A DNA stretch of 64,000 nucleotides, from NCBI RefSeq assembly GCF_000319385.1, contig NC_019566.1, positions 697,266-761,265 on the forward strand, read 5' to 3'. Below the pieces are notes generated by a model. That model saw nothing but the letters and a program-made list of their open reading frames with translations. It was not told the origin of the DNA and searched no databases. Positions 6,922 to 47,669 of the stretch are shown here, piece after piece; positions within the stretch are counted from its first letter, which is position 1; every line of letters begins with the position of its first letter. The DNA comes from Candidatus Endolissoclinum faulkneri L2. GTDB lineage: Bacteria; Pseudomonadota; Alphaproteobacteria; Thalassobaculales; Thalassobaculaceae. Made by a program: the position numbers and the translations under genes.

Positions 6922-7089
6922 AAATGAGGGGCATTGTAAATCTGCGATTTTTAGTTTATTGAGATTTATCTCATACCGATAATCTATTAATTATTGATAA
7001 ATATGAAGATTTTTTATTAATCGCACTGATAAAATGAAGTTAAAATTTAACATAGAATACAAAATACCTTTATTGCAAACATAAACTTG

Positions 7090-7123
7090 AATATGTTTGG
7101 TTAGTATAAAAACCAAACATATT
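7090..7123 (+). terminator. 13-bp hairpin downstream of the TRAP operon
   Basis: AATATGTTTGGTT pairs perfectly with AACCAAACATATT around an 8-base loop, 170 bases after the stress-protein stop. No clean T-tract follows, so termination is inferred from position and perfect pairing. Confidence 0.45.
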
Positions 7124-8076
7124 AACATAATATCGAGCAAAATTATTTTTAATGTTTTTATATAATTGTCTATTAATTCGACTATTCGTTAGTTAAGCTT
7201 TAAAGCTATTAAACCCCAAAGGAATTTAATAGGCCAATTTACTATATACCATTAAATTTAATCAAATAAATTAATTTTACAACTAACTTTAATAGATTTC
7301 TACTTATTTTTTAATAAGTATGTAGTTAATACCTGACTTCTGTAGTTTACTAACTATTACTATTTTAGCTATCAATAATAGCTTGGCGCTAGATAATTTT
7401 TGTCGACAGAATTGTATTTCAAAGTTCAAGCACTGAGCAGACATACCATCGCTTTATTAATAATATTAAAAGATAAAGAATAAAATACTCAGGCAAAGAT
7501 AAAAAAACAAATGACTTAACGATAAGTAAACTATAGGTTATATTTTTGTGTAATCAATCAAATAATATTTTTTTTGTTCAATGCCTAACAAAAATTAACA
7601 TATAGTTTTAAGCAGTATATCAGTGTATTTTGCTAAAAGAAAATTATAATTTTATATATTAGTTTTTTAGCAAAATAATAAACATTAAATTATCGAGTTA
7701 ATTAGCTTGCCTGAATATAATCGATGACTGTATCCTTTTTAACTAATCTCAACTAACTATAATATTAAGAGTATCAATATGTTATTTTATTCACAATAAA
7801 AAATTGCTCTATAAAAGCAAAGCAAATTCTTTCTAAAAAACAATACATTGCTGATTTGATTTAGCGTAAATTATACTTAATTTGTTTCATTTTAAATATA
7901 TTAGGTCAAATCGTCACTTATAACAATAACTAACATTGCACTGACTGCACAACAATAAAGAAGTTAAAAAATATTTTACGTTTTGTTTGCATCCTCAACA
8001 AAATAACTCAGCTATAATTCCTTACATCGTTCTATTTTTTAAAAGTCTCATGGTTTATACGAAATCAATTATCACA

Positions 8077-8126
8077 ATAAACACTATCTTAGTCATTGTA
8101 TTACCAATGACTAAGATAGTGTTTAT
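8077..8126 (-). terminator. 22-bp perfect hairpin between convergent genes
   Basis: A 22-base arm (8077-8098) pairs perfectly with 8105-8126 around a six-base loop. It lies about 135 bases beyond the sspB stop and could end sspB transcription from the right or read-through from the left. No long T-run flanks it. In such AT-rich spacer DNA, perfect pairing of this length suggests selection or recent origin. Confidence 0.5.
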
Positions 8127-8260
8127 AATTAAATATAATTTTTCAGTGAAAAAGAATCATTCAAAGAATTATTTCTCAAAAATAGAGGATTATTATCTTA
8201 ATTAAATTTAAAATTTCGTGAATAAAAACAATTAAATTCATCGTCAATGATAAATAATTT

Positions 8261-8719
8261 TTATTTCTTATTTCGGAATTGATCTAAAGAAACTACATCG
8301 GCCGATACAGTAGAGCTATTTTTTTCTGCAGGAAATTCCTCCTGAAGAGTAATATTACGATTAACAACGTGCTCAAATTGTAAGCCAAATTTAACGGAAG
8401 GATCCGTAAAACCAGTAATAGCCTCAAAAGGAACTTCTAGTGACTCAAGCACATCGTTGAAACTTAACATTATTGAAAACTTATCCTCCATTACTTCCAG
8501 TTTCCAAAACTGAAACTGTAGAATGATTGTCATCTTATCTGGATAACGCTTAACTAAATACTCCGGAATTTTTACTCCATTAGCACGCGTTTTAAATGTG
8601 ATATACAAACTTCTATTATCAGAAAGACCACGCTGAGATACTAGCTTAAGGGTTTCCTTAACTACACTACGCAAGGCCGTTTCGACCATTAAGTCGTATC
8701 GAAAAATATCTTCAACCAT
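8261..8719 (-). CDS. sspB: SspB-type ClpXP adaptor protein
   Basis: Adaptor that binds the ssrA tag on stalled-translation products and delivers them to the ClpXP protease in the cytoplasm. The 152-residue protein has the alphaproteobacterial SspB layout. An N-terminal helix (IFRYDLMVETALRSVVKETL) leads into YITFKT and the groove-forming KRYPDKMTIILQFQFW. Then comes LSFNDVLESLEVPFEAITGFTDPSVKFGLQFE. A charged C-terminal tail ends in VSLDQFRNKK, resembling the ClpX-docking tail. The start ATG has only a weak TAAAG upstream. Its position 110 bases downstream of ssrA on the same strand puts adaptor and tag source together. Confidence 0.92.
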   Translation of the reverse strand: MVEDIFRYDLMVETALRSVVKETLKLVSQRGLSDNRSLYITFKTRANGVKIPEYLVKRYPDKMTIILQFQFWKLEVMEDKFSIMLSFNDVLESLEVPFEAITGFTDPSVKFGLQFEHVVNRNITLQEEFPAEKNSSTVSADVVSLDQFRNKK

Positions 8720-8828
8720 ATGCTTTAGTACATTTGTAATGCTTAGTCCTAGTAGATTAACAGAAAATTTGTTCTTCCTTAAAGAAAGATCTCAGTTAAA
8801 TTCATACATTAATCTAAAATAACAATAC

Positions 8829-9176
8829 GAGCCTTCTGTTGCTAGGCGGCTCGCAGGCCCCACGTTTAGGTCCAAAGCCGAAACGAATTAGTCAGAGGAA
8901 GCTGAGCTGTATCACGCAGCCAAGCGAGCCTCAAAATAGTTGTCGTTCGCAACTAATATAAAAGCCCGATAACGGTGGAACAATGCCGAGCAAAAAGTGA
9001 TCCTTTATTACGCACGTCGACCCTGTTTCGCCCCCATTTAAAACCTTACTGTTTCTTAACATAAGTATTAATTCATGGTGGAGGCGCCGGGTACCGCCCC
9101 CGGTTCCGCTTCGCTTATTCCGAACACCATTTATCGCCATAGTCGACCGGAAAGCCGACGCTAGTTGATGTAGGCG
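8829..9176 (-). ncRNA. ssrA: Two-piece (circularly permuted) alphaproteobacterial tmRNA
   Basis: Rescues stalled ribosomes and adds a degradation tag. On the minus strand the acceptor half comes first and ends in GCGCCTCCACCA at 9076, with a T-arm CCGGG/CCCGG closing the loop GGCGGTA. A spacer of about 40 bases (9036-9075) follows. The coding half then starts with GGGGGCG at 9035, which pairs with CGCCTCC of the acceptor end. This permuted order is characteristic of alphaproteobacteria, whose tmRNA is processed into two RNAs. The tag frame at 8950-8912 follows UAGUU and reads ANDNYFEARLAA then stop. The 3' end is a GAGCC/GGCTC hairpin near 8829. Outer limits are approximate. Confidence 0.93.
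8912..8950 (-). other. tmRNA tag-peptide reading frame
   Basis: The resume codon GCG at 8950-8948 opens a 12-codon frame, A-N-D-N-Y-F-E-A-R-L-A-A, ended by TGA at 8914-8912. AND-N at the start is the SspB-binding half in alphaproteobacteria, and the final L-A-A is the ClpX recognition end. The tag is intact. Confidence 0.92.
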
Positions 9177-10127
9177 TTTGTTAACAATTATTAAAGGGGA
9201 TAAGAGAAAGTAAATATGCGAATGTTATATTAAATTTTAATTTAAGAAATTTTATTATAATCTCAAAAAAATTTAATATTAATTAAACCGTAGAACGATA
9301 AAAGCACACTTTTTGGTTATTGTTAAGGTTATATTTGATATATAATTAATCAATGCTCCCCTTAATAAGCTTGTTAATAAAGATGAAAAATCAGGGAAAT
9401 AATCTTAAAAAATTGTCGGCAATATGCTTATTAAGATTATAATTGAGACTGGTCAATTTAATGTAAAAAATGATTTTTTATTCTTGGTTAAAAAAACAGC
9501 CAGTATTAGTCAGAATTAATAAATAAAATTCCCGCTATTAACTAATATATTTTCACGATTGAATATAGCTTGGCCTACAAAAACATCTCTGTAATTATTT
9601 TTTGACCTAAAATAGCAAAGATAATTTTATCATGTTCTTGTTAACTACTTAAAAAACTATTTTCAGTTTATATAAAATTTCTACGTCTTGATTGTATAAT
9701 AAAATTTGTCTATCAAACCAATATAAACTTTTGTTTTTTAATTCAAATGATTATTCTTTTAAAGATAATGAAGTTACAATAACACAATTTTATTGCTTGA
9801 TTTTAAATCGTACCATTATATTAATATAATAATTAGCATTTTCTTGAAAGCAAAGATTAAGAAGTAATTAAAGTTAAAAATGAGTAGATCTTAGCTATTA
9901 AATATAATATTTAAGAACTTATAAGTAATTTGGTTAGTGGAATAATACCAGAAGTAGCAATTGTTATACAAGCTATACAATTAGATAATTATTTTCAATT
10001 TAGATAAGTTATAATGCTTAATTCAATTTTGACTAATAGCGAGTATAAAAATTATTATAGTATTCTTTTTATGGCTAATTAGCATAGTTGATATCATAAT
10101 CATTTTGATTAAATTTATGAGGATAAA
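9177..10127. other. AT-rich spacer where thyA would be expected
   Basis: About 950 bases with no open frame or RNA-like block. In many alphaproteobacteria thyA lies just before folA, and this gap is roughly thyA-sized, but I can read no thymidylate synthase motif in any frame. Confidence 0.5.
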
Positions 10128-10616
10128 ATCACTAAAATTACAATCATTGCAGCAATGGCTGACAACATGGTAATCGGTCGCAATAATGGTAGTTTACCTT
10201 GGTTAATACCTAAGGACCTTGCTCGTTTTAAACATTGTACACTAGGTCACAGCATATTGATGGGGCGACGTACATGGGACACAATCGGTCATCCTCTGCC
10301 GTTTCGTCGATCAATAGTCTTTACTCGTAATGTGCACTGGGCTGCAAAAGGAGCATATCCGGTAAAGAATCTAGATGCCGCCCTCGCTGTCTGTGTTAAA
10401 GAAAAGGAAGTATTTGTCGTTGGCGGAAGGGATATCTTCGCCTTAACGATACCATTAGCTGATGCTTTATTTCTTACTTTTGTACATACACAGGCTCGCG
10501 GTGACGTTCAATTTCCAAATATTAACTGGTCTGCCTGGCGCGAAATCTGGAGAGAAAATCATCCACCTGATGGTAATCGACCTGCTTTTACTTTTACTAA
10601 TTACTTGCGTACCTAG
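10128..10616 (+). CDS. folA: Dihydrofolate reductase (start codon non-canonical or damaged)
   Basis: Reduces dihydrofolate to tetrahydrofolate with NADPH in the cytoplasm. Seen: AAMADNMVIGRNNGSLPW, the catalytic Asp in IPKDLARFK, ILMGRRTWDTIG, VFVVGGRDIF for NADPH binding, and ADALFLTFV. The first canonical ATG is at 10155, but the family's conserved first strand (here KITIIAA) is encoded upstream of it. GAGG at 10119-10122 precedes an in-frame ATC (10128); an ATT is at 10137. I therefore extend the gene to 10128 (about 162 residues). An out-of-frame ATG at 10117 would fit if one A were added in the following A-run, so a small 5' deletion is possible. Confidence 0.85.
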   Translation: MTKITIIAAMADNMVIGRNNGSLPWLIPKDLARFKHCTLGHSILMGRRTWDTIGHPLPFRRSIVFTRNVHWAAKGAYPVKNLDAALAVCVKEKEVFVVGGRDIFALTIPLADALFLTFVHTQARGDVQFPNINWSAWREIWRENHPPDGNRPAFTFTNYLRT

Positions 10617-12030: not shown

Positions 12031-13209
12031 ATGCCTTGGAGTGATCAAGGAGGCCGCAGGCGAGGTCCTTGGGGTGGTAGCAGCGAAGGGCAGGGGCGTA
12101 TCAATTCACCCTGGGGGCGTTCTCCAGGAAATGATAGCGGTAATCAAGGACCAAACCAAAATGACATCGAAGATATTTTGCGCCGTCAGCAGCAAAAATT
12201 TCGCGGTATGATGCCAAGTGGATTTCTCGGTCCCAAATTTATTATTTTAGCAATTGTTATTGCTACTTTTATTTGGCTGTCGTCTGGCTTTTATAGAGTG
12301 CAGCCAAACCAACAAGGTATTGAACTAGTTCTTGGGAAATATGCAGGTACACCAAAAGAACCTGGCCTGCAATGGAATTGGCCAGCTCCGATTGGTGAAA
12401 TATTCCTTCCTGATGTTACACGCGAAAATAGGATCGAGATTGGTTTTCGTTCCGGAGTTGATGCACGCACAAGCACTAGGCGCGATGTGCCAGAGGAAAG
12501 CCAAATGATCACTGGCGATGAAAATATTATTGATATTGATTTTGTTGTATTTTGGCGTATTCGCAATGCCGGTAATTTTTTGTTTAACTTGCATAATCCT
12601 GAACAAACTGTGAAGGTTTCTGCTGAGGCAGTAATGCGTGATATTGTTGGCAATACAAGGATTCAGGATGCCTTAACCGAATGTCGTGGTGCGATTGAAA
12701 CTGCTGCGCACGAACAACTTCAGTTGCTAGTTAATGAGTATCAAGCTGGCATAGAGATCCGTTCTGTTCAACTCAACGAGGTTGATCCCCCTGCTCAAGT
12801 AATCGATGCCTTCAACGAAGTCACGCGCGCAAGACAGGACCGAGAGCGACTTAAAAATGAGGCAGAAGGTTATCGAAATGATGTGGTGCCTAGAGCTCGA
12901 GGAGAGGCTGCCCAAATAATTGAAAACGCCGATGCATATCGCCAGGAAGTGGTCAACCGAGCTCAAGGGGATGCTAACCGGTTTAACTCAGTTTACGAAG
13001 CTTATAAACAAGCTAAGAACTTAACAACTAGACGTATCTACTTAGACACGTTAGAAGAGATTCTATCAAATGTAAATAAGGTGATCATTGACGATGACGT
13101 TAAGAATAGTGGCGTTATACCTTACTTACTACCTTTGCCGGAAGTTCATGAATTATTCAGCAATAATCGCTTAATAAAAAATACTAGCACTAAAGGGGAG
13201 AATAACTAA
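12031..13209 (+). CDS. hflK: HflK, membrane regulator of FtsH protease
   Basis: SPFH/band-7 membrane protein that forms, with HflC, a large periplasmic cage around FtsH and tunes degradation of membrane proteins. The 392-residue product has a Gly/Arg/Trp-rich cytoplasmic head (MPWSDQGGRRRGPWGG). One transmembrane helix (about 69-88) follows, then the band-7 domain starting YRVQPNQQGIELVLGKY. Near 255-330 a coiled-coil with repeated RAxG-type segments (VPRARGEAAQIIENA, VNRAQGDANRF) matches the family. AGAGAGGA precedes the ATG. The stop TAA abuts the hflC ATG directly, so the two are translationally coupled. Confidence 0.95.
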   Translation: MPWSDQGGRRRGPWGGSSEGQGRINSPWGRSPGNDSGNQGPNQNDIEDILRRQQQKFRGMMPSGFLGPKFIILAIVIATFIWLSSGFYRVQPNQQGIELVLGKYAGTPKEPGLQWNWPAPIGEIFLPDVTRENRIEIGFRSGVDARTSTRRDVPEESQMITGDENIIDIDFVVFWRIRNAGNFLFNLHNPEQTVKVSAEAVMRDIVGNTRIQDALTECRGAIETAAHEQLQLLVNEYQAGIEIRSVQLNEVDPPAQVIDAFNEVTRARQDRERLKNEAEGYRNDVVPRARGEAAQIIENADAYRQEVVNRAQGDANRFNSVYEAYKQAKNLTTRRIYLDTLEEILSNVNKVIIDDDVKNSGVIPYLLPLPEVHELFSNNRLIKNTSTKGENN

Positions 13210-14097
13210 ATGAACTGGGCAGTTGCCGGTGTTTGCATCGTATTCGCCATGGGAGTCATTCTTTCACAAGCCTTATTTATTGTTAATGAAACTGAGCAAG
13301 CATTGGTAGTTCTGTTTGGTGAACCGGTTCGCGAGATTCGAACACCAGGTATTAATTTCAAAATTCCTTTGGCGGAGAACACAACTTATTATGAGCGCCG
13401 TGCACTTGATGTCGATCCACCGCGCCAGCAAGTCATTTTAGCTGACCAGAAAAGACTTGATGTCGATAGCTACGCTCGGTATAAAATCATTGATCCGCTA
13501 CAATTTTTTCGAGCAGTGCGTGCTGAACGTGAGGCAGCTTCCCGACTGTCAATAATTATCAACTCTTCGCTAAGACGTGTTTTAGGTAATCAAACGTTAG
13601 CTGATGTCTTGTCGAAGAAGCGTGCTAGAATTATGACCAATATCAGAACAGAGGTAAACGATAGCGCACATCGATTCGGTATGGAGATAATTGAAGTACG
13701 CATTCGTAGAGCTGACTATCCAGATGCGACTAAGCAAAACATCTTCGATCGTATGACTTCTGAGCGAGAGCGTGAAGCAAGAGAGTTCCGTGCTCAAGGA
13801 AATGAGCAAGCGCAAAAAATTAGGGCAGATGCCGATAAACAACGCACAGTGATTGTTGCGGAATCTCAAAAGAACGCAGAAACTTTGCGCGGTCAAGGCG
13901 ATGGTCAGGCGATCAAAGTTTACACAGATGCTTTCAGTCGTGATCTTGCATTTTTTGATTTTTACTGGTCTATGCAAGTATATAAGAAGATGGTGAATAA
14001 TGGAAGTGCTGATACCACTATGTTGCTTTCTCTAAACAGCGAGTTTTTCAAGTATTTTAACTCCATAGCCACTAGGCATCCCGTGGATGCTCGGTGA
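13210..14097 (+). CDS. hflC: HflC, partner of HflK
   Basis: Second subunit of the HflKC complex. The 295-residue protein has an N-terminal membrane anchor (about 3-23). The band-7 domain follows, with FIVNETEQALVVLFGEPVREI, ERRALDVDP and DVDSYARYKI. A helical region contains SEREREAREFRAQGNEQAQKIRADADKQRTVI. VYTDAFSRDLAFFDFYWSMQVYKKM near the end is the conserved C-terminal family segment. It starts immediately after hflK. In related bacteria a small DUF2065 gene and a DegP protease often follow; here nearly 2 kb of spacer follows instead, so that tail of the operon appears lost. Confidence 0.95.
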   Translation: MNWAVAGVCIVFAMGVILSQALFIVNETEQALVVLFGEPVREIRTPGINFKIPLAENTTYYERRALDVDPPRQQVILADQKRLDVDSYARYKIIDPLQFFRAVRAEREAASRLSIIINSSLRRVLGNQTLADVLSKKRARIMTNIRTEVNDSAHRFGMEIIEVRIRRADYPDATKQNIFDRMTSEREREAREFRAQGNEQAQKIRADADKQRTVIVAESQKNAETLRGQGDGQAIKVYTDAFSRDLAFFDFYWSMQVYKKMVNNGSADTTMLLSLNSEFFKYFNSIATRHPVDAR

Positions 14098-45177: not shown

Positions 45178-46196
45178 ATTGTTTTACCGGGAATAAGACC
45201 AGTAGGTCTCACTAACAATACCAAGATCAATACGAGAAAAGAAACTGCATACTTGTAATCAGTAGATAGAAGCTGTACTAAACCTTCTGGCTCCCAGTTT
45301 GTTGGGCCAAGATATGCTAAAAATTTTTTAAAAGAATAAGTCACTGTTACTTCCGAAAAAGCAACGACAAACCCTCCAAATACTGCACCAAGAGGCTGTC
45401 CAATGCCTCCGATAATTGTTGCAGCAAAGACGGGTAACATAATCTGCATAAATATAAAAGGCTTGTAAATCTTATCTAGGCTATATAGTGTACCCGCAAT
45501 ACACGCAAGTGTACCAGCAATTATCCAAGCAATTAACACTACACGCTCTGGGTTAATTCCGGAAAGCAAGGCTAAATCCTCGTTGTCAGAATAGGCGCGC
45601 ATCGCTTTACCCCAGCGGGTTTTATAAATAAACCAGAATAAACTAATAACCACTATTAGAGTTACCAGTAAAGTGATTAGCTGGGTTTGTCTAATAGCTA
45701 TTCCCTGATCCAATCCTGTAATCGCCTTGAAATCGCGAAAACTAATTAAAAATCGAGCACCGTCAGCAAAATTATGCTCATTAGGGCCAATAATTATTCG
45801 AATTAAGCCAGCCATAAAGAACATTAATCCAACCGAAACTATAGTAAAAGTTATTGGCGTTGAACGATTTTTTCGATAAAATCGAAATATGATTTGGTCT
45901 TCTAACAAAGCTATCACTATAGTTGCAAGAATTCCTGCAGGCAGTGCTAGCAAAGCTGTTGGCATAGGTGAGATACTAACTCCTTTCGTTTGTAACAGGT
46001 GAGTGGTTAGAATAGTGACCATAGCTCCGAAAGACATTAACTCTCCGTGGGAGAAATTAGCAAAGCGCAAAATACCAAAGACAATAGTTACACCAAGTGC
46101 GCCAAGAGACAGCTGAGCGCCGTAGGTAATAGCCGGCAAGATAACAAAATTTGTGAGTAAAGCAAAAGCGTTGGCTATTTCCATTCTAACCTCCAA
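45174..46196 (-). CDS. livH: Branched-chain amino-acid ABC transporter permease LivH
   Basis: First membrane subunit of the importer, 340 residues. Signature blocks: YGAQLSLGALGVTIVFGILRFANFSHGELMSFGAM near the N-terminus and WGKAMRAYSDNEDLALLSGINPERV, the ATPase-contact loop. AGTLYSLDKIYKPFIFMQIMLPVFAATIIGGIGQPLGAVFGGF then follows. It overlaps livF by 11 bases upstream and livM by four downstream, so translation is coupled through the cluster. A second ATG four codons in (46184) is an alternative start. Confidence 0.93.
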   Translation of the reverse strand: MEVRMEIANAFALLTNFVILPAITYGAQLSLGALGVTIVFGILRFANFSHGELMSFGAMVTILTTHLLQTKGVSISPMPTALLALPAGILATIVIALLEDQIIFRFYRKNRSTPITFTIVSVGLMFFMAGLIRIIIGPNEHNFADGARFLISFRDFKAITGLDQGIAIRQTQLITLLVTLIVVISLFWFIYKTRWGKAMRAYSDNEDLALLSGINPERVVLIAWIIAGTLACIAGTLYSLDKIYKPFIFMQIMLPVFAATIIGGIGQPLGAVFGGFVVAFSEVTVTYSFKKFLAYLGPTNWEPEGLVQLLSTDYKYAVSFLVLILVLLVRPTGLIPGKTI

Positions 46197-46890
46197 GAAA
46201 CGAACGGCGAACTTCTTCGTTAGCTAATAGCACTTTACCAGTATCGACAAAGCGGTTGCTTCCCTGAACTAGGACAAACCCTTGATCAGCAATCTCTAGT
46301 GCTTGACTTGCATTCTGCTCTACCATAATGACGGCGACTCCGGTAAGTGCAATATCGACTATGCGCTCAAACAGTTCATCCATAACTATTGGTGATACAC
46401 CAGCAGTAGGCTCGTCTAGCATTAGCAATCGCGGCTGGGTCATCATGGCTCTTCCGACCGCTACTTGTTGACGTTGTCCTCCGGACAAATTGCCTGCAGG
46501 TTGATTGCGTTTCTCAGCTAATATGGGAAATAATTCAAAGATTTGCTCCTTCATTTTGGAAACATCGCTATCATTAATAAATGCTCCCATTTCTAGATTT
46601 TCTTCTACACTTAATGACACAAAGACATTGCGATTCTGTGGCACAAATCCCATACCAACGCGCACTCGATCTTGAGGTGCAAGGTGAGTAATATCCTCGC
46701 CATTAAAAACTACATTCCCCTTACAAAGATTTAGCATTCCAAACACTGCTTTCATTGCCGTTGACTTTCCGGCACCATTAGGTCCAACAATTACGGCAAT
46801 CTCCCCCTTATTCACCCACAACGCGCAATCATTGATGATGTAAGCACCGCCGTAGCCGCATGTCATGCCAGTTGCCATAAGGAGACTCAT
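46186..46890 (-). CDS. livF: Branched-chain amino-acid ABC transporter ATPase LivF
   Basis: One of two ATPases energising the importer; 234 residues, normal for LivF. Walker A GPNGAGKST (near 37-45), FVPQNRNVFVSLSVEENLEMGA, ABC signature LSGGQRQQVAVGRAMM, Walker B LLMLDEPTAGVSP, and the switch histidine region replaced by EQNASQAL as in other LivF proteins. Its ATG overlaps the livG stop by four bases. All catalytic residues are present. Confidence 0.95.
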   Translation of the reverse strand: MSLLMATGMTCGYGGAYIINDCALWVNKGEIAVIVGPNGAGKSTAMKAVFGMLNLCKGNVVFNGEDITHLAPQDRVRVGMGFVPQNRNVFVSLSVEENLEMGAFINDSDVSKMKEQIFELFPILAEKRNQPAGNLSGGQRQQVAVGRAMMTQPRLLMLDEPTAGVSPIVMDELFERIVDIALTGVAVIMVEQNASQALEIADQGFVLVQGSNRFVDTGKVLLANEEVRRSFLGG

Positions 46891-47669
46891 ATCTCTGACA
46901 CCTGCTTATACTTACGCCCATTACCTAAATACGCTTCTATCACATTCTCATTATTCATTACTTCATTTGGCTTACCCTGAGTCAAAATACGCCCTTCTGC
47001 CATGACTAAGACCATATCACAGAGACGATTGATAAAATTCATATCGTGTTCTATCAAACAAAAAGTATAACCAAATTCGTGGTTTAAACGCAGAATAGAG
47101 CGCTCAATAATTTGCACCAATCTACGGTTTACACCTGCAGCAACCTCATCTAAAAAAATAATTTTTGGCTTAGCCATCATTGTGCGACCAAGTTCTAGCA
47201 ACTTCTTCTGTCCGCCCGATAGATTGCCTGCTAACTCGTTTTCCAATTGATGGATCTCCAAAAAATTGATCACTTCTTTAGCCTGCTTAAGTACTAATGC
47301 ATCCGCCTTACGGACTTTAGCGAAATTAAACCATGCTTGACTCAATTGCTCACCAAGCTGGTCACCAGGCACCACCATCAGATTTTCAAGTACTGTTAGA
47401 TTAGAAAATTCATGAGCAATCTGGAAAGTGCGAAGCAATCCCTTGTGAAACAATTCGTGCGGCTTAAGAAAAGTAATATTTTCGCCATCGAGATATACCT
47501 CTCCTGATGACGGTGATAAATGTCCAGCAATAATGTTAAACAGCGTGGTTTTGCCAGCACCGTTAGGACCAATCAAGCCAATAATTGATCCTTGACCTAT
47601 TTCAAAAGATACTCCATCAATTGCTTTGATACCCACAAAATTCTTACTAATATTATTAACTTTAATCAT
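46887..47669 (-). CDS. livG: Branched-chain amino-acid ABC transporter ATPase LivG
   Basis: First gene of the livGFHM operon; ATPase of 260 residues. Walker A GPNGAGKTT (near 34-42), LLRTFQIAHEFSNLTVLENLMV, ABC signature NLSGGQKKLLELGRTMM, Walker B IIFLDEVAAGVN and switch EHDMNFI. The residue after the catalytic Glu is Val where most LivG proteins have Pro (DEPAAG), a mild deviation. GGAT lies eight bases before the ATG. No periplasmic binding protein gene (livK) precedes it; 1.5 kb of spacer does. Confidence 0.94.
   Translation of the reverse strand: MIKVNNISKNFVGIKAIDGVSFEIGQGSIIGLIGPNGAGKTTLFNIIAGHLSPSSGEVYLDGENITFLKPHELFHKGLLRTFQIAHEFSNLTVLENLMVVPGDQLGEQLSQAWFNFAKVRKADALVLKQAKEVINFLEIHQLENELAGNLSGGQKKLLELGRTMMAKPKIIFLDEVAAGVNRRLVQIIERSILRLNHEFGYTFCLIEHDMNFINRLCDMVLVMAEGRILTQGKPNEVMNNENVIEAYLGNGRKYKQVSEI

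Follow-up and report, generated by a model that had tools for sequence, protein, structure and literature searches.

The adjacent tmRNA and sspB genes of Candidatus Endolissoclinum faulkneri L2: an ordinary alphaproteobacterial locus

In the genome of Candidatus Endolissoclinum faulkneri L2, a sea squirt symbiont, ssrA, the gene for tmRNA, lies directly upstream of sspB. The locus is an ordinary, known arrangement, and the adjacency of the two genes is a common alphaproteobacterial state, not an adaptation of the symbiont. The best explanation, which we hold to be very probable, is that of an ordinary trans-translation locus inherited from free-living ancestors, with SspB serving ClpXP. Two points follow from the analysis. 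The conserved linkage receives a number: among the matches listed, about three quarters of the alphaproteobacterial genomes in which both genes were placed have sspB immediately after ssrA. Moreover, a symbiont of low coding density retains trans-translation, with tmRNA-SmpB as the sole rescue route found, ArfB having been the alternative searched for.

The two genes and their products

The window is the whole stretch of DNA analysed, 64,000 nucleotides corresponding to positions 697,266-761,265 of the single 1,481,191-base contig of the L2 genome. Its features of interest are the following.

8821..9168, minus strand: ssrA, a circularly permuted (two-piece) alphaproteobacterial tmRNA gene, from ARAGORN and RF01849
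9076..9138, minus strand: tmRNA acceptor piece, the first part of the gene, with CCA at its end (9076); boundaries set by eye on the RF01849 alignment
9036..9075, minus strand: intervening segment that separates the acceptor piece from the coding piece; boundaries by eye
8912..8950, minus strand: tag reading frame, ANDNYFEARLAA and stop; coding part given by ARAGORN, bases 219-257 of the gene
8720..8820, minus strand: ssrA-sspB spacer of 101 bases, without terminator-like or structured element
8261..8719, minus strand: sspB, encoding the SspB (alpha type) ClpXP adaptor, 152 aa, from PF04386, solved relatives and dN/dS

The Rfam covariance model RF01849 (alpha_tmRNA; gathering cut-off 50 bits) matches 9199..8824 on the minus strand over its full length, 1-355, with 237.1 bits and an E-value of 1.6e-67, and finds no other match in the genome. 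The tmRNA_permuted model (RF04321) also matches, and ARAGORN calls a permuted tmRNA (tmRNA*) at 8821-9168, minus strand, with the tag ANDNYFEARLAA. These results uphold the two-piece ssrA with this tag that a preliminary description had proposed from the letters of the window, the full-length match above the cut-off being the check by covariance model that it had suggested. The gene order is permuted (ARAGORN, RF04321), with the acceptor piece 5' of the coding piece, which by eye begins at 9035. In this order and in the full-length match, as well as in the ANDN start and AA end of its tag and in the gene-encoded CCA of its acceptor, the gene resembles the two-piece tmRNA represented by RF01849 and by the ssrA of Caulobacter crescentus. 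It departs from that type in the sixth tag residue, which is Phe in L2 and its sister strain L5 and Ala in larger-genome relatives.

In the acceptor stem, read by eye as 5' GGGGGCG against CGCCUCC-ACCA, G3 stands opposite U70, and a G3:U70 pair is the identity mark of alanine tRNAs. The 3' arm is identical in L2, L5 and three larger-genome relatives, and the tag ends in AA followed by a stop, an AA end being found in 108 of 109 surveyed tags. The intervening segment is variable, both between L2 and L5 and among relatives; by analogy with the known two-piece tmRNA, as set out in part of PMC3985003, it is presumably cut out by processing.

The intact sspB that had been described on the same strand after ssrA is confirmed (8719..8261, 152 aa). 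Its product matches PF04386 (gathering cut-off 27 bits) with 121.5 bits and an E-value of 4.4e-35, phmmer matches it to the solved chains 2qaz, 2qas and 2nys, and the gene is present in a single copy. The distance between the two genes had been given as 110 bases; the gap is indeed short, but the exact figure is 101 bases (8720-8820), with sspB downstream of ssrA on the minus strand. SspB thus belongs to the same family as alphaproteobacterial SspB of solved structure and ends in the VV-SLD-F tail of its larger-genome relatives. Its linker, in contrast, is shorter than in four other genus members (152 residues in all, compared with 161-163). In the family alignment the linker is variable and the C-terminal tail, VVSLDQFRNKK, is kept; this tail would be the ClpX-docking element. 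The strict tail pattern occurs at 75 of 137 loci, and a VVTVDF-like variant is present in many sphingomonad-type loci. Within these 137 loci, a set biased to sphingomonads and Caulobacterales and holding some genomes twice, SspB of L2 agrees with 36 of the 45 columns in which at least 90% of loci share a residue, and differs in nine. Near-invariant residues of the family are altered in both L2 and L5: Gly34 is replaced by Asp, His36 by Arg, His37 by Ser and Glu62 by Lys, the original residues being found in 117, 122, 120 and 116 of 134 rows, respectively, of a set that enters three genomes twice. Given these altered residues and a stem distance that is the longest of ten proteins (see below), the adaptor activity of SspB could be weakened. 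The SspB of E. coli, to which there is only distant sequence similarity, presumably does the same job of passing ssrA-tagged proteins to ClpXP; the alphaproteobacterial type was reportedly studied by Lessner et al. in 2007.

Gene order in relatives and across alphaproteobacteria

The sister strain L5 (NZ_CP006745.1, locus L064) has the same local gene order, the same pair and the same tag. A member of the same family, G107 (L063), mirrors the window with hflK, mrp, folA, thyA, TPR-type, ssrA, sspB, fumarase, ..., Usp and TRAP, where the names thyA, fumarase and TPR-type are our reading of the translations. In a closer relative (L065), ssrA-sspB is followed by a fumarase-like gene, and later by Usp and TRAP. 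The order that G107 and L065 share with the window points to inheritance of the pair, and hence of the locus, from free-living ancestors, the free-living status of G107 and of G191-G194 being deduced from genomes of 4.7 to 5.6 million bases. The genes that intervene in relatives (fumarase-like, TPR-type and others) are absent around the symbiont ssrA-sspB, and six flanking proteins of L065 have no remnant in the window (tblastn, E up to 1).

Two long spacers, 6922-8260 and 9200-10127, are found where the relatives have fumarase-like, TPR-type and other genes, with protein remnants undetected. Beyond the second, folA (10128-10616) is kept; the gene read as thyA lies beside folA in G107 (L063 5330-6124), and a search for ThyA (PF00303) found none in the L2 genome.

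How common the arrangement is was surveyed in 190 alphaproteobacterial genomes, all searched both for SspB (168 positive) and for the alpha tmRNA (176 positive). Both genes could be placed in 130 genomes, among the 150 matches listed for each search, lists that favour better-scoring matches; gaps were taken from match positions, not from annotated starts. Among the matches listed, 98 of the 130 genomes have ssrA directly upstream of a same-strand sspB, with a gap below 1000 bases. The gap is at most 250 bases in 88 of those 98, and its median is about 110 bases when counted from ssrA up to where the SspB match begins, the value for L2 being 134 by this measure. The remaining 32 genomes, still among the matches listed, lack close adjacency by the survey measure: 15 have the genes on the same strand at least 1.2 kb apart, four on opposite strands, one in reversed order and 12 on different contigs. 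Named examples of adjacency are Caulobacter segnis (L094), Brevundimonas aurantiaca (L085) and Caulobacter sp. S45 (L129); in a Phenylobacterium (L123), the tmRNA is about 2 kb upstream of sspB. Four of 12 named loci, all sphingomonad-type (L071, L074, L110 and L112), have no tmRNA within the fetched 6-kb flanks.

The comparison of distances across alphaproteobacteria that the preliminary description had called for thus shows an adjacency that is common but not universal. The linkage, which had been put forward as a notable feature of L2, is the usual order of the class, and an arrangement special to this genome is rejected by the survey together with the mirrored gene order of G107. Chance is rejected as well, as random placement would give the same arrangement within 1 kb in about 1 to 4 genomes per 10,000; the adjacency goes back to shared ancestry. 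In the literature, genes on both sides of tmRNA are described as conserved in alphaproteobacteria in a section of PMC2245857 that leaves them unnamed, and an explicit statement of the ssrA-sspB adjacency was not found in open-licence literature, which is a weak negative.

The question arises as to whether selection holds the two genes together as a functional unit, such that producer and reader of the tag are co-expressed. We consider this doubtful, albeit possible. The short, same-strand gap in 98 of 130 genomes (among the matches listed) speaks for it, as do the survival of the pair when its neighbours on either side were erased and the lack of any terminator-like site in the spacer. However, many genomes separate the two genes, by the wide spacing, opposite strands or reversed order listed above; smpB, whose product tmRNA needs, lies about 170 kb from ssrA-sspB in L2; and the spacer itself is poorly conserved, with 65 of 98 aligned bases identical between L2 and L5. 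A regulatory element within the spacer was considered and dropped: 8720..8820 contains no terminator-like site, promoter-like sites in 8100-9500 number nine, compared with 5.5 (sd 2.3) in shuffles, and a fold z-score of -0.22 (8720-8823) indicates no structured element.

Selection on the pair and its place in ribosome rescue

Conservation between L2 and L5 differs along the locus. The two strains share 295 of 344 aligned bases in the tmRNA, whose tag peptide is unchanged with one silent difference in its frame, and 114 of 152 residues in SspB; in the flanks the figures are 405 of 787 and 161 of 268. The dN/dS of sspB is 0.31, to be compared with 0.32 for folA, 0.18 for mrp, 0.14 for hflK, 0.12 for TRAP and 0.10 for Usp. 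It follows that sspB is under purifying selection, and that both genes are under selection, unequally. A decaying remnant, intact in looks only, would suit the coding density of 57% published for this symbiont, but it is extremely improbable in view of an L5 conservation far above that of the flanks, of purifying selection, and of the single complete copy of each gene. The term 'decaying genome', used in the preliminary description, is itself misleading: the comparison of L2 with L5 in PMC3851785 reports a very low coding density (57%), but also that the gene inventory is stable and recent pseudogenes are very few. In such an inventory intact genes are the rule, so that retention alone says little. 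The main text of that paper is silent on tmRNA, SspB, ClpX and trans-translation.

A more delicate case is SspB itself, which may be drifting to loss, in which case the C-terminal LAA would suffice for ClpXP to take tagged proteins, and tmRNA-SmpB alone would be essential. Two of the larger-genome relatives, G191 and G193, share 94.6% of SspB columns, and the symbionts share 58.9% with them. Ten proteins were compared for symbiont-stem distance; SspB has the greatest value, 0.41, the others ranging from 0.10 to 0.28. These ten are eight of the 12 ORFs matched in all three genomes, plus smpB and clpX. Four ORFs were set aside: 12291-12653 and 13597-13977, which run antisense to hflK and the frame after it (read as hflC), and 46186-46890 and 46887-47669, which reach about 30% identity even between two larger-genome relatives and are probably paralogs; three of the four have stems longer than that of sspB. 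The stem distance and the replacement of several near-invariant residues in both strains favour drift, as does a ratio of symbiont-relative to relative-relative distance of 10.6, second after clpX (15.1). But hflK (9.5) and mrp (8.9) come close, so sspB is within the spread and not a clear outlier; it has kept an open frame with a dN/dS of 0.31 across the L2-L5 divergence, and, unlike the linker, its C-terminal tail is conserved. We therefore tend to regard drift to loss as unlikely. Relaxed selection on SspB was likewise dropped as a firm claim, its stem being the longest of ten but its ratio only the second highest.

As for the partners of an ordinary trans-translation locus, smpB, clpX and clpP are present once each in the L2 genome, as open frames without stops, clpX scoring over the cut-off. 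A genome-wide search for RF-1-domain proteins (E 0.001) returned only two (L255 and L256), which by length and sequence we take for PrfB and PrfA, the latter also by its adjoining methyltransferase-like gene; therefore no ArfB was found by this search in the L2 genome. In Caulobacter, according to part of PMC8012679, ArfB is essential once trans-translation is absent. With SmpB present, no ArfB found and this precedent, tmRNA-SmpB, and with it trans-translation, is probably essential in L2. Genomes reported without tmRNA or SmpB are mostly highly reduced ones, as stated in an excerpt of PMC4131195.

The preliminary description had deduced, from the intactness of both genes, a strong need for ribosome rescue and for delivery to ClpXP. 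This was half right. Strong need is supported for tmRNA-SmpB, given the tag unchanged between L2 and L5, the presence of SmpB and the absence of any ArfB found. It is not supported for delivery via SspB, which shows only ordinary purifying selection (dN/dS of 0.31, compared with 0.10-0.18 in four of five neighbours) and the longest symbiont stem of the ten proteins.

In the established pathway, as far as the consulted part of PMC3985003 describes it, a permuted precursor is cut into two pairing pieces, and the resulting molecule, alanine-charged and SmpB-bound, tags and frees stalled ribosomes, after which SspB tethers the tagged proteins to ClpXP. By likeness to the family, the permuted ssrA transcript of L2 would be processed into an acceptor and a coding piece, which by pairing would form an alanyl-tRNA-like molecule. 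Charged with alanine as in the family, and together with SmpB, it would rescue stalled ribosomes and append Ala and ANDNYFEARLAA to the unfinished protein. SspB would then probably bind the tag, dock on ClpX via VVSLDQFRNKK and speed degradation by ClpXP. Observed directly are the genes and their order, the tag, the conservation of the locus between L2 and L5, and the occurrence of SmpB, ClpX and ClpP in the genome; each biochemical step is carried over from the family.

Phenylalanine at the sixth tag position

Tags were collected from 136 loci, of which 109 received a tag from ARAGORN, a few of them doubtful; the 136 rows include three genomes twice (L042/L209, L044/L210 and L057/L214). Nine of the 109 tags, many of them unusually long, do not start with A.DN (L055, L164, L194, L195, L196, L200, L201, L202 and L223), and some of these may be miscalls.

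The tag is ANDNYFEARLAA in both symbiont strains and ANDNYAEARLAA in three larger-genome relatives. Tyr occupies position five in 31 surveyed tags; of these, 28 have Ala at position six, two have Phe (both symbionts) and one has Gly, counts in which at least two genomes are entered twice. The sixth codon is GCT in the relatives and TTT in L2 and L5, a two-base change. One may imagine that the change from Ala to Phe and the loss of near-invariant SspB residues arose together in the common ancestor of L2 and L5, so that the host-bound symbiont would have a tag-adaptor pairing of its own, but we judge this very unlikely. Judging from the tags compared, Phe at position six appears to be a small, lineage-specific detail of the symbionts.
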